Assembly: GCF_019613955.1 (NCBI RefSeq) | Contig: NZ_CP080443.1 | Coordinates: 1,860,001 to 1,924,000, forward strand | From: Chryseobacterium sp. LJ668 | GTDB lineage: Bacteria > Bacteroidota > Bacteroidia > Flavobacteriales > Weeksellaceae | Direction: 5' to 3' | DNA length: 64,000 bases | Part shown: one piece after another, positions 59,924 to 63,898 of the stretch | Numbering within the stretch: the stretch's first letter is position 1 | Layout of the letters: each line of letters starts with the position of its first letter | The notes under the pieces: model-generated | What the model saw: only the letters and a program-made list of their open reading frames with translations | The model's database searches: none | What the model was told of the DNA's origin: nothing | Program-made: the position numbers and the translations under genes

Positions 59924-60574
59924 ATGTTAGATCATCAGTTTATTGTTAATAAATTCGGATTTTTAGGCGCTGATTTCTTAAAAGATCTCAGCAAACATGC
60001 GATCATCAATAATGTAAAAGCTAAAACTGAAATAACCAGAGAAGGGCAGAAAAATAAATTTGTTCCATTCCTGATCAAAGGTTCAGTGCGTGTTTTTACC
60101 TTGAATGACGGCCGTGAATTGATTTACTATTATGTGAGAGAAAATGACAGTTGCATGATGACATTTTCATCTATTTTTTCAGATTATATAAGCCGTATAT
60201 ACGCTGTTGCAGAAGAAGATTCAGAGGTTTTGCTTATTCCCGTTTCGGTGATGCATGAATGGTTGATCCGGTTTCCTGCAATCAATAAATTATTTTATCA
60301 TGAGTATGACAAACGGTTTTCAGAAGTCATGAATATGGTGAATGAAGCTGTTTTTCACAGGCTGGATAAAAGAATTCTGAGCTACATAAAACACCAGATC
60401 CACTTGACAGGAAACAATCCTATAAGACTTACCCACAGAGAAATTGCAGTCAATCTCGGCACATCGAGGGAAGTGGTAAGCAGAGTTTTAAAGAAAATGG
60501 AGAACGAAGGAGAACTCTCCCAAAACAAAGAAGGAATAAGAATCCCATTGAGTGATAATGTTAGGCAACTGTAG
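59924..60574 (+). CDS. Crp/Fnr family transcriptional regulator
   Basis: A 216-residue DNA-binding protein: N-terminal cyclic-nucleotide-binding-like beta-roll (about residues 10-115), a dimer helix, and a C-terminal winged helix-turn-helix with LTHREIAVNLGTSREVVSRVLKKMENEGEL. The Arg-Glu-Val-x-Ser-Arg recognition helix is the kind that reads TGTGA half-sites. The Fnr cysteine cluster is absent, so it does not bind a classic Fnr Fe-S cluster; its ligand is unknown. It lies directly upstream of the five-gene operon whose promoter carries a matching palindrome. Confidence 0.93.
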   Translation: MLDHQFIVNKFGFLGADFLKDLSKHAIINNVKAKTEITREGQKNKFVPFLIKGSVRVFTLNDGRELIYYYVRENDSCMMTFSSIFSDYISRIYAVAEEDSEVLLIPVSVMHEWLIRFPAINKLFYHEYDKRFSEVMNMVNEAVFHRLDKRILSYIKHQIHLTGNNPIRLTHREIAVNLGTSREVVSRVLKKMENEGELSQNKEGIRIPLSDNVRQL

Positions 60575-60623
60575 GAAGTTGTAATTAGATTAAATTATTG
60601 TCTAATGAGCAAAAAAAATTCAC

Positions 60624-60643
60624 TGTGTGACTTTTGTCACACA
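60624..60643. promoter_or_regulatory. Crp-type operator, perfect palindrome
   Basis: TGTGTGACTTTTGTCACACA is a perfect inverted repeat (8-bp arms, TTTT centre) that contains TGTGA-N6-TCACA, the classic Crp half-site arrangement. Its centre (60633.5) lies 30 bp before the TAAGTTTG -7 element and about 41-43 bp before the implied start site, the class II activator position. Confidence 0.75.
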
Positions 60644-60663
60644 CTTTTGTAAGCATATCTCTA

Positions 60664-60671
60664 TAAGTTTG
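60664..60671 (+). promoter_or_regulatory. -7 element of the DUF5777 operon
   Basis: TAAGTTTG matches TAnnTTTG 25 bp before the ATG at 60697. There is no correctly spaced upstream TTTG (the nearest leaves only 14 bp), as expected for an activator-dependent promoter. Confidence 0.55.
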
Positions 60672-60696
60672 TTGTATCAATTTTAATTAGAAATAT

Positions 60697-61542
60697 ATGA
60701 CAAAAACTCTCCTCTTTTTGTCAATGTTTTCATCAATTTTTGCCTTTTCTCAGGAAGATTTGCTGAAGGATATTGACACCATTCAAACAAATACCAGCAA
60801 CACCTCACCACCGGCTTTTAAAGCGCTACAAATCGTAACAGGTCAATCAACGAAACTTACCGCAAAGAACGAATGGTATATTGTCGTTGCACACCGTTTC
60901 GGGGATATAAGCACAGGTTTTAAAAATTTTTTCGGTCTCGATGATGCTTCTACAAAACTAGGTGTGATTTATGGTGTAACAGACGGTCTGTCATTAAGTT
61001 TATCGCGGGAAACCAATATGAAAACCTTTGAATTCGGAGCAAAGTACAAGTTTCTGAAGCAAAATGAAAATTTCCCTGTTGATCTGGTGGGCTATAATGT
61101 AATGGCAATCAATACAGATTTAGATAAAGATACTTATCCGCATCTTCAGTTTGGTGACAGGCTTTCATATCTTACACAGGCGCTGATTTCCAGAAGGTTT
61201 AATGAAAACTTTTCTTTGCAGCTGAGCCCGTCTTACGTTCATAAAAATCTTTATGAGCCCAATGTTGAAGACAATAATCAATTCTTAGCAGGATTGGGAG
61301 GCCGGTATAAAATTTCTAAAAGAATATCGATCAATGCAGAATACTTTGTGAATTTCGACAGTCACAGTTTCTATAAAAATCCTCTGTCTTTAGGGATGGA
61401 TATTGAAACCGGAGGCCACGTTTTTCAGCTCTTGTTCAGTAATTCGCAACTCAATTCTGACATTGGCTATCTGACCAATGCTACAGGAAAATGGGAGAAA
61501 GGGCAGATTTTCTTTGGGTTTAATCTTTACAGAGTTTTTTAA
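60697..61542 (+). CDS. DUF5777 family beta-barrel protein
   Basis: A 281-residue exported protein: signal peptide MTKTLLFLSMFSSIFAFSQ, a short acidic linker, then a beta-barrel region (WYIVVAHRFGDISTG, KLGVIYGVTDGLSLSLSRE, FEFGAKYKFL, ending FFGFNLYRVF with a terminal aromatic). It matches DUF5777, an outer-membrane barrel family of Bacteroidota. First gene of a five-gene operon with a Crp-type operator. The cytochrome gene starts 1 bp after its stop. Confidence 0.88.
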   Translation: MTKTLLFLSMFSSIFAFSQEDLLKDIDTIQTNTSNTSPPAFKALQIVTGQSTKLTAKNEWYIVVAHRFGDISTGFKNFFGLDDASTKLGVIYGVTDGLSLSLSRETNMKTFEFGAKYKFLKQNENFPVDLVGYNVMAINTDLDKDTYPHLQFGDRLSYLTQALISRRFNENFSLQLSPSYVHKNLYEPNVEDNNQFLAGLGGRYKISKRISINAEYFVNFDSHSFYKNPLSLGMDIETGGHVFQLLFSNSQLNSDIGYLTNATGKWEKGQIFFGFNLYRVF

Positions 61543-61543
61543 A

Positions 61544-61894
61544 ATGAAAAAGATAATTTACATACTCACTCCGGTTCTATTTCTTGCTTCATGCGAGAGC
61601 AGAACGTACGAAGAGATTTCAGATAAAACTCAGTCCCCGGAAGTTGTGAAATTTGCAGCAGACATAAAACCTATTGTTGATGCCAATTGTATCATCTGCC
61701 ATTCTCCGGGCGGGTCAGCGTCTTTTCAGCCTCTTAATAATTATAATCAGGTAAAAACCAATATTGATAATATTTTAGACAGGATACAAAGACCCAACGG
61801 AGATCCTCAGAAAATGCCTCAAGGAGGATCGTTATCGGCTAGCCAGATCAATCTTTTCATTAAATGGAAAGCAGACGGATTGATTGAAAACTAA
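61544..61894 (+). CDS. Mono-haem c-type cytochrome lipoprotein
   Basis: A 116-residue lipoprotein (signal MKKIIYILTPVLFLASC, Cys17) with a haem c motif CIICH (Cys49, Cys52, His53) and a likely distal ligand Met91 in KMPQGG. The ending SASQINLFIKWKADG resembles cytochromes that sit beside Bacteroidota membrane complexes. It should be lipid-anchored at a membrane facing the periplasm and move electrons. The ORF reads further upstream in frame, but the ATG at 61544 gives the signal peptide. Confidence 0.9.
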   Translation: MKKIIYILTPVLFLASCESRTYEEISDKTQSPEVVKFAADIKPIVDANCIICHSPGGSASFQPLNNYNQVKTNIDNILDRIQRPNGDPQKMPQGGSLSASQINLFIKWKADGLIEN

Positions 61895-61906
61895 ACAATA
61901 TAAGCT

Positions 61907-62452
61907 ATGAAAAAAATATTATTAATTTCAGTATCGCTTTTGGTTTGCAGCCTCAGCTTTGCGCAAAAGTACAGCTCTAAAACAGGAAAAGTGACCTTCG
62001 AAGCATCCGTCCCTTTGTTCGAAGATGTATATGCCCAGGATGACAACAACGTAGTCGTTTTGAATGCGGATACCGGCGAGATGGCTTCTGTATCTATGGT
62101 GAAGAATTTTCATTTTAAAGTAAAGCTCATGGAAGAGCATTTTAATGAAAGCTATGCCGAAACTGCAAAATATCCGAAGACAACATTTAAAGGTAAAATT
62201 TTAAATTTTGATAAATCAAAACTCACTGCAAATGCACAAAAATATACTGTTCAGGGTACTTTGAATTTCCACGGTGTAGACAGAACGGTTTCGTCTCCCG
62301 CAACAGTATATACAAAAGATGGAAAGATTTATATGAAGGGAAATTTTGTAGCAAAATCAGCAGATTTTAAAGTAACCATTCCGAAGATGGTCATGAAAAA
62401 AGTCGCTGAAAACGTAAATGTTGAATACAATTATACACTTGTAAAGCAATGA
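61907..62452 (+). CDS. YceI family protein
   Basis: A 181-residue exported protein: signal peptide MKKILLISVSLLVCSLSFAQ and a lipocalin-like YceI beta-barrel with GKVTFEASVPL, AKYPKTTFKGKI, GTLNFHGVDRTVSSPA and a final NYTLVKQ. YceI proteins bind polyisoprenoid-like lipids, possibly quinones, in the periplasm. It overlaps the ankyrin gene by 4 bp (ATGA). Confidence 0.9.
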   Translation: MKKILLISVSLLVCSLSFAQKYSSKTGKVTFEASVPLFEDVYAQDDNNVVVLNADTGEMASVSMVKNFHFKVKLMEEHFNESYAETAKYPKTTFKGKILNFDKSKLTANAQKYTVQGTLNFHGVDRTVSSPATVYTKDGKIYMKGNFVAKSADFKVTIPKMVMKKVAENVNVEYNYTLVKQ

Positions 62453-62973
62453 AAAATATACTATTGATTTTAAGCTTCTTAAGCTTCTCTTTTTTTCACG
62501 CTCAGGAACAGGTGAAATCTGTTTTTGATGTAGCGAGAAGCGGTACTGTTGCGGAACTTAAAGTTTTAATGAAAAACAATCCGGATATTATCAACCAGAC
62601 CAATGAGCAAAAATATTCTCCGCTTATTTTGGCTTGTTATCGTGGAAATATGGAAGTTGCTGATTTTCTTATTGATCATGTAAAAGACATTAATTATAAT
62701 TCTCCAATGGGTACTGTGCTTATGGCAGTAATATTCAAAGGAGATTTGAAATTAGCTCAAAAATTATTAGATAACAAATCTGATGTAAACAAGGCAGATT
62801 CACAAGGAACAACGCCTCTTATTTTTGCTGTAAAATTGGGAAATATTGAGATGGTACAACTTCTTCTCAAATACAAAGCAAATAAAAATTTAAAAGATAA
62901 CGAAGGAAAAACGGCGTTTGATTATGCTGTATTTTCAAAAAATAATGAACTTATCAATCAATTAAAAAATTAA
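62449..62973 (+). CDS. Exported ankyrin-repeat protein
   Basis: A 174-residue protein: signal peptide MKNILLILSFLSFSFFHAQ then four to five ankyrin repeats (KYSPLILACYRGNMEVADFL, GTVLMAVIFKGDLKLAQKLL, GTTPLIFAVKLGNIEMVQLL, GKTAFDYAVFSKN). Ankyrin repeats are protein-binding scaffolds. A periplasmic copy inside a cytochrome operon suggests a partner or assembly role, which is inference. Confidence 0.9.
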   Translation: MKNILLILSFLSFSFFHAQEQVKSVFDVARSGTVAELKVLMKNNPDIINQTNEQKYSPLILACYRGNMEVADFLIDHVKDINYNSPMGTVLMAVIFKGDLKLAQKLLDNKSDVNKADSQGTTPLIFAVKLGNIEMVQLLLKYKANKNLKDNEGKTAFDYAVFSKNNELINQLKN

Positions 62974-62975
62974 AT

Positions 62976-63764
62976 ATGAAACACATTGTACTCTTTTCTT
63001 GCTTATTAATAAGTAGTTTTGGCATTTCGCAGCAAAAAACTACAGGTGATGTCCCTTTATCTCCCAATAATGGAATAACTGCAAATTTTACTTTAGATAA
63101 TGCAACCTCTAAGGTCACTTTGGTTTTAAAAGGTCCTTCTGACAGATGGTTTGGATTGGGAATTGGTGTAAATGCGGGATTTAGCATGTCTTCAGGAGAT
63201 GCGGTAGTTTATTCTGATGTTACTACTCCAAAATTAACAGATAGAAATTTTATAGGCACAACGCAACCGCCATTAGATAGTTCACAAGACTGGACGATCG
63301 TAAGTGATGTCGTTTCAGGAACTGTAAGAACGTTAACTTTAACAAGAAATTTAACAAATTCTGATCCTAATGATTATCAAATGCCATATGCTACCACAAA
63401 TTCTATAAGTTTTGCGGGACCAAGACCTGCTACAGCTACTACGACCGTAGCACCACATGGAGGTACAGCCAATGTAGGATATGCTACTGCTTCTTTTACA
63501 ACAGTATTGGGTGTAGATGAATTGAATGCTTTAGAAAAAAATAAGGTAACAGTCTACCCAAACCCTGTAAAAGAAACGGTAAACTTCAAAAATGCAGAGA
63601 AAATAAAATCGATCGACATTTATGAATCTACCGGAAGAAAAGTAAAATCTGTAAAATTAGACAGTGAAAACATCAGTGTTTCTGATCTGAAATCCGGAAG
63701 CTATTATCTGGAAATTACTTTGAAAGACGGAAGCCTTTCTTATGAGAAATTAATTAAAGAATAA
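62976..63764 (+). CDS. Secreted DOMON-like haem-binding protein with T9SS sorting domain
   Basis: A 262-residue protein: signal peptide ending near FGISQ, a DOMON-like domain (about residues 30-170) and a T9SS type A sorting domain (KVTVYPNPVKETVNFKNAEK ... GSYYLEITLKDGS). The DOMON features are WFGLGIGV, Met71 in GFSMSSGDAVVY and His161 in APHGGT, which match the Met/His axial pair of haem-b DOMON domains; also QPPLDSSQDW and LTRNLTNSDPND. Expected at the cell surface or secreted. Last gene of the operon, 2 bp after the ankyrin gene. Confidence 0.82.
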   Translation: MKHIVLFSCLLISSFGISQQKTTGDVPLSPNNGITANFTLDNATSKVTLVLKGPSDRWFGLGIGVNAGFSMSSGDAVVYSDVTTPKLTDRNFIGTTQPPLDSSQDWTIVSDVVSGTVRTLTLTRNLTNSDPNDYQMPYATTNSISFAGPRPATATTTVAPHGGTANVGYATASFTTVLGVDELNALEKNKVTVYPNPVKETVNFKNAEKIKSIDIYESTGRKVKSVKLDSENISVSDLKSGSYYLEITLKDGSLSYEKLIKE

Positions 63765-63767
63765 TTG

Positions 63768-63792
63768 AAAGCCACTGAAAAGTGGCTTTTTT
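63768..63792 (+). terminator. Terminator of the DUF5777-DOMON operon
   Basis: AAAGCCACT, GAAA tetraloop, AGTGGCTTT, then TTT and further T-rich sequence. Confidence 0.85.
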
Positions 63793-63898
63793 ATTTTTTT
63801 AATTGAGCATTTTTTGGAATTAAAATGATCGATAAAATGCTTGCTAACAAAAAAAATAAAAACTTTTTTAACAAAAAATGGCTGCGCTATAAATGAAA

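Follow-up and report, generated by a model that had tools for sequence, protein, structure and literature searches.

Positions 60624-60643 of the window, a stretch of 64,000 nucleotides (nt) from Chryseobacterium sp. LJ668 (contig NZ_CP080443.1, 1,860,001 to 1,924,000 of the forward strand), hold an operator palindrome that is probably the binding site of the Crp/Fnr-family regulator encoded beside it (59924-60574). The bound regulator would activate the downstream envelope operon in class II fashion. A preliminary description of this DNA had proposed a Crp/Fnr operator next to its own regulator gene, and comparison across relatives backs that proposal through a fixed site, a fixed spacing to the promoter, and linked loss. 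The sigma factor of Bacteroidota recognizes TAnnTTTG, and activated promoters in this phylum seem, to our knowledge, to have received little attention. Most of the genomes compared have a single regulator, a single operator, and a single operon, with one exact spacing, which makes the locus a compact test case.

The operator is constrained in sequence and position

The sequence at 60624-60643 is TGTGTGAC-TTTT-GTCACACA. It has no strand of its own and is positioned 49 nt past the regulator stop codon, ahead of a DUF5777 gene that starts at 60697. It had been called a perfect palindrome, which is correct for the 8-bp (base pair) arms, which are fully complementary, and incorrect for the TTTT center, which is not self-complementary. 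Promoter sequences were compared between the window and 83 fetched loci, one of which (L005) is the locus of the window itself; the other 82 together with the window give 63 distinct rows. Resemblance to DUF5777 brought in 30 of the fetched loci and resemblance to the regulator the other 53, so they are not a random sample, and loci L001-L004, which came from a pattern search and do not carry this operon, were left out. The TGTGA-N6-TCACA motif noted earlier is exact in the window and does not stand as the conserved core, being exact in 3/63 distinct rows.

The conserved core is GTGAC-TTTT-RTCAC, and the outer TGTG/CACA bases are peculiar to those few genomes. In the window the core reads GTGACTTTTGTCAC (60627-60640), and it occupies the same place in 63/63 distinct rows, where its forms are GTGACTTTTATCAC (55 rows), GTGACTTTTGTCAC (7, window included), and GTGACAAATATCAC (1); the constrained core GTGACTTTTRTCAC is present in 62/63. 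GTGAC-N5-TCAC begins 37 nt ahead of the T of the -7 box in every distinct row. Many columns between the operator and the -7 box carry far less information and serve as an internal control. Loss of the palindrome from loci that keep the gene order had been named as an observation that would count against the operator. All six genes are present in 53/53 named loci, and each of these keeps the site and the spacing. The pattern GTGA-N6-TCAC-N22/23-TAnnTTTG was found in 114/116 genus genomes against 8 control matches in all.

The 14-mer GTGACTTTTRTCAC has a single occurrence in the 3.47-megabase genome of the window, and this rarity, together with its fixed place in relatives, puts the operator beyond chance. 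The palindrome is real and constrained. A genome-wide regulon in the same genome was considered and rejected, because there is one exact 14-mer and matches with up to two mismatches occur at 42 places compared with 63 for the control.

The promoter has class II geometry and lacks a -33 box

Class II promoters activated by CRP or FNR in Escherichia coli have a dimer site centered near -41.5 that covers the -33/-35 region, and their upstream element is poor. In the window, the -7 box is TAAGTTTG at 60664-60671 of the forward strand; the same box is present in 59/63 distinct rows, with TATGTTTG in 3 and TAATTTTG in 1. A -33 element is separated from the -7 box by a spacer of 17-23 nt, and neither TTTG nor TTG at this distance was found in any of 56 units (named loci and window). 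The missing -33 box would be an indirect sign of activator-dependent transcription. In the portion of the Flavobacterium psychrophilum start-site map used here, the -7 box lies at -12 to -5 (PMC9723704), which predicts a transcription start at 60676 on the forward strand and places the operator center (60633.5) at -42.5. The preliminary description had put the center about 41-43 bp upstream of the implied start, in a class II layout, and had described a -7 box with no proper upstream TTTG; the predicted position, the fixed 36-37 nt spacing, and the count of 0/56 agree with both statements.

The promoter resembles the E. coli type in the centering of the dimer site, the covered -33/-35 region, and the poor upstream element. 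It differs in having the Bacteroidota -7 box TAnnTTTG and in a predicted operator center of -42.5 (spacing 37) or -41.5 (spacing 36) compared with near -41.5 in E. coli. Relative to the predicted start, the activator site is centered near -41.5 to -42.5, which is class II geometry. In the proposed mechanism, a dimer of the 59924-60574 protein would bind 60624-60643, centered about 42 bp upstream of the start, substitute for the missing -33 element, and activate the DUF5777-cytochrome c-YceI-ankyrin-DOMON operon as a class II activator.

A second conserved block precedes the operator. This A-rich element (60605-60619, forward strand, predicted -71 to -57) has the consensus ATTGATAAAAACAAT in relatives, exact in 45/63 distinct rows and with no more than three mismatches in 57/63; the window has 5 mismatches. 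Its conservation two helical turns upstream of the operator, and the TGATAAAA that it has in common with the reverse complement of the operator, would fit two regulator dimers binding in tandem, with the element 21 bp upstream as a second operator. This arrangement seems quite unlikely. The likeness is not significant (1028/20000 shuffles were as good), the element has no clear palindrome and is poorly matched in the window, and an UP-like contact site explains it equally well. E. coli class II promoters have such a contact for the polymerase alpha subunit upstream of the activator, and the A-rich element may reasonably be read as its counterpart.

Operator, regulator, and operon are linked across genomes

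DUF5777 is present in 111/118 genus genomes. No orthologous regulator was found in the seven genomes that are without it; three have only ~32% identical matches and four have none at 1e-30. The exact 14-mer is present in 22/24 genus genomes, and the two that are without it belong to the seven without DUF5777. It was found in 0/15 genomes from other families of the order. Operon, regulator, and operator are absent together in the genus genomes that are without them.

Elsewhere in Weeksellaceae the regulators are 46-51% identical, and operator and spacing are kept. The usual site there is GTGACTTTAGTCAC, which is exact in 14/16 regulator-bearing non-genus genomes compared with 1/112 others in the same search, the 112 being genomes that were not among the matches listed in the regulator search. 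The two exceptions carry the variants GTGACTAATATCAC (G222) and GTGACATTAGTTAC (G264). If a bound regulator contacts RNA polymerase, the operator-promoter distance should be rigid and the leader free to vary in length. This is the pattern in loci L179-L186, where the operator is 36 or 37 nt from the -7 box in 8/8 and the -7 box begins 22 to 111 nt ahead of the start codon used. No such operator site was found in L177 and L178, two family loci that have DUF5777 and no regulator.

Several observations weigh against activation by the adjacent regulator. The 14-mer is single-copy in every genome that has it other than G001 and G018, where a second copy lies upstream of small genes preceding a 57-58% identical paralogous regulator and has no TAnnTTTG at 36-37 nt. 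Genome G101 (L223) keeps operon and operator with no adjacent regulator. It has only 49-50% identical regulators, one of which adjoins a second operon copy, so another regulator may use the operator. The broad pattern GTGA-N6-TCAC-N22/23-TAnnTTTG is not specific to this regulator: it is found ahead of sdhC and of a small SnoaL-like gene, in some cases in genomes with no regulator of this type, which suggests that the architecture is shared by other regulators. Finally, the window palindrome folds as a terminator-like hairpin (-12 kcal/mol, z -2.79).

The persistence of the operator in G101 and the units in regulator-less genomes would suit a site that is bound by another Crp/Fnr paralogue in place of the adjacent protein, or one to which the regulator binds as a repressor. 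We consider this unlikely. For repression, a spacing of 36-37 nt would be unnecessary, as would the absence of a -33 box from all 56 units. The operator is also linked to the adjacent regulator across genera, and in distant genomes it is found at the stop codon of the regulator gene.

The hairpin bears on a different reading, in which the palindrome serves the regulator gene as an intrinsic terminator and the promoter layout is secondary. Its placement 49 nt after the stop codon suits a terminator, the window palindrome fits a terminator pattern on both strands, and some sister-genus loci have stems of 9-12 pairs followed by T runs. Pair counts were made on 47/56 available units, which gave 44 distinct genus rows. 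The four GTGA/TCAC pairs are invariant in these rows, the next inner pair is unpaired in 40/44, and the flanking pairs covary no more than shuffles do. The stem has only 4 pairs in 65/109 distinct units, and a terminator would have no need of an exact distance to the -7 box. An RNA hairpin was rejected as the conserved role in this genus on the invariant pairs and the lack of covariation above shuffles, and the terminator reading as a whole appears highly improbable. In the sister genera, where the long stems and T runs suggest that the palindrome may serve both uses, a terminator is a serious rival.

The regulator is a Crp/Fnr protein with one invariant cysteine

The regulator gene (59924-60574, forward strand) encodes 216 amino acids with a single cysteine, Cys77. 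Pfam cNMP_binding and HTH_Crp_2 match above cut-off, and the structure model has a CRP fold with a predicted local distance difference test (pLDDT) score of 84.8. With a cNMP-binding-type domain and a Crp-type helix-turn-helix, the protein is a member of the Crp/Fnr superfamily. Cys77 is invariant in 111/111 distinct regulators from the loci fetched, 85 of which have one cysteine, and in 50/50 sequences of alignment A1, where Phe81 is also invariant.

The cyclic AMP (cAMP) pocket of CRP includes Glu72 and Ser83. Identity with cAMP-CRP was rejected, since the phmmer alignment with CRP has TFSSIF for GELGLF and Ile opposite Ser83. FNR uses four cysteines for its 4Fe-4S cluster; the window regulator has one, and identity with this oxygen-sensing iron-sulphur protein was rejected. 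The regulator would thus act independently of cAMP and of an FNR-type iron-sulphur cluster, and its most likely input would be a redox, haem, or sulphur signal received at Cys77 or close to it.

Arg182, Glu183, and Arg187 are invariant in 50/50 sequences of alignment A1 and match R180, E181, and R185 of CRP. These residues of the recognition helix may read each GTGA half-site. R180 and E181 of CRP-type proteins are linked to the bases read in the sections of the HcpR study drawn on here (PMC1274295). The same sections describe HcpR and HcpR2, likewise local Crp/Fnr regulators with a small regulon beside the regulator gene, and the Desulfovibrio HcpR site wTGTGAnnnnnnTCACAw resembles the window operator (PMC1274295). 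The window system differs in its target, an envelope operon rather than hcp, and in its conserved core, GTGAC-N4-RTCAC. Identity with HcpR or HcpR2 was rejected because Pfam finds no hcp in the downstream operon; no hcp search was made elsewhere in the genome.

The best PDB sequence match of the regulator is 3DV8. The excerpted account of PgRsp from Porphyromonas gingivalis describes a redox-sensing, haem-binding Crp/Fnr protein outside the named families that was modelled on the same structure (PMC6955866). By residue number and spacing, its Cys76 and Met78 match Cys77 and Met79 of the window protein. Its haem spectra were unaltered by single replacement of Cys76, Met78, or His85 (PMC6955866). 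The agreement between the window regulator and redox or haem regulators of the PgRsp type, as far as that account describes them, is confined to the Cys-x-Met position.

The downstream genes form a predicted exported operon

Five genes follow on the forward strand. They encode a DUF5777 outer-membrane beta-barrel protein (60697-61542; Pfam PF19089, E 9e-87), a mono-haem cytochrome c-like lipoprotein (61544-61894), a YceI lipocalin-like protein (61907-62452; PF04264, E 4e-12), an exported ankyrin-repeat protein (62449-62973; Ank_2, E 4e-26), and a DOMON protein with a type IX secretion sorting tail (62976-63764; DOMON, E 7e-9, and Por_Secre_tail, E 4e-12). The CXXCH motif of the cytochrome (CIICH) and its ...FLASC lipobox were read directly by eye, and the match to Cytochrome_CBB3 is weak (E 4e-4) and below the curated cut-off. 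Gaps of 1, 12, -4, and 2 nt support a single operon, and all five proteins start with signal- or lipoprotein-like N-termini, as judged by eye. The gene composition given in the preliminary description agrees with Pfam, weakly for the cytochrome, and its picture of one tightly packed, exported operon fits these gaps and N-termini. A terminator-like hairpin followed by a T run, identified by eye, lies after the operon at 63768-63796 of the forward strand. Locus L274 (G062) has a DUF5777 frame in pieces with stop codons.

Cytochrome and YceI relatives lie nearby in 32 of 40 divergent DUF5777 loci (L177-L216, some cut by contig ends), which points to DUF5777, cytochrome c, and YceI as an old core. 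The regulator, ankyrin, and DOMON genes accompany this core mostly in Weeksellaceae; L192 and L216, which belong to another family, also have ankyrin and DOMON genes. DUF5777 thereby gains a gene neighborhood and a candidate regulator.

PDB sequence searches gave no match for DUF5777 or for YceI, two weak matches over 20 residues for the cytochrome, and a match to the sorting tail only for the DOMON protein. A full-text literature search found no paper on DUF5777. Searches on Crp/Fnr class II promoters in Bacteroidetes, HcpR in Bacteroidetes, and DUF2892 gave nothing useful, and with some terms poorly formed this leaves absence unproven. According to the parts of the Burkholderia work used here, YceI lipocalins bind ubiquinone-8 and one acts with cytochrome b561 against lipid peroxyl radicals (PMC9113575). 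In that BcnA-LcoA-PsrA detoxification system, a YceI lipocalin is likewise genetically linked to an envelope haem protein. The partner there is cytochrome b561, whereas the window partners are a cytochrome c-like lipoprotein, a DUF5777 barrel, and ankyrin and DOMON proteins. The operon most likely serves envelope redox protection or electron transfer and may have a part in lipid protection. The preliminary description had proposed an envelope electron-transfer or haem/quinone module, and a haem/quinone role is a candidate function.

The regulator family extends beyond Weeksellaceae

A profile search found family members in 129/395 Bacteroidota genomes. Among the more numerous matches listed, 39 loci were examined: those fetched automatically (L294 to L313 except L299) and 20 that were chosen. 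A GTGA-N6-TCAC site between -40 and +250 relative to the regulator stop codon is present in 8/39 loci, and 0/39 have one in the 300 nt before the regulator start. The eight stop-side sites are those of the five nearest relatives (L294-L298, 5/5) and 3/34 others. In the best-matching non-Weeksellaceae genomes (G486, G588, G609, G710, G717, G786, and G810) the site is at -7 to +20 of the stop codon in 7/7, and a YgaP-like membrane-protein frame of 67-79 amino acids follows it in all seven (Pfam was run on one). Of the 13 sites in loci of this kind, which total 193358 bases, 12 are at regulator ends; two places are counted twice. Of four such distant loci checked, only L276 has an exact TAnnTTTG at 36-37 nt, which argues against extending the promoter claim to distant Bacteroidota.

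Several more distant family members adjoin sulphur genes, named by eye. The window genome has a second member outside the window (L314, 3621-4253) beside TauE, a metallo-beta-lactamase/rhodanese, and two sulphur-transport proteins. Genome G153 has a member with 35-37% identity ahead of a rhodanese gene; ~9 kb from this member, a GTGACTAAAGTCAC unit stands before a disulphide reductase-rhodanese gene. The locus thus connects a regulator family whose other members adjoin sulphur genes with an envelope module that includes a cytochrome and a YceI lipocalin, and this link makes the inducing signal testable.

It is possible, and we offer it tentatively, that these Cys-x-Met Crp regulators form a portable activator cassette, travelling with an operator at or behind their own stop codon and driving whatever gene follows. 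The ancestral cargo would be the sulphur-linked YgaP-like protein. In Weeksellaceae the cassette would have joined the older DUF5777-cytochrome c-YceI module, placing it under the control of a signal (persulphide, haem, or redox) sensed by way of Cys77.

Additional operator units

In L047 and L084 the regulator is separated from the operon by a pair of inserted genes (L047 6788-9475, L084 6803-9496), and the product of the first carries a type IX sorting tail. Ahead of these genes is a second unit of operator and promoter, GTGACATTTATCAC with a spacing of 37 nt. In the clade of 50% paralogues (L218, L219, and L225) an operator unit is also present upstream of the regulator gene, which suggests autoregulation there. 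Conserved autoregulation of the window-type regulator was rejected, since inspection by eye of the 90 nt upstream in the 53 named loci and the window found no GTGA-N6-TCAC-like block.

Two further units precede other genes, which were named by eye. The second conserved unit combines GTGAGATTTCTCAC with a -7 box at a spacing of 37 nt and lies before an sdhC-like and then an sdhA-like gene (position 1501 of L334, L344, L347, L355, and L362), and the sdhC-unit sequence is identical in G011 and G084, which do not have the window's regulator. A third unit, near GTGAYNATARTCAC and with a -7 box at 36-37 nt, lies before a SnoaL/NTF2-like gene of ~110 amino acids (position 1501 of L338, L339, L350, L351, and L359).

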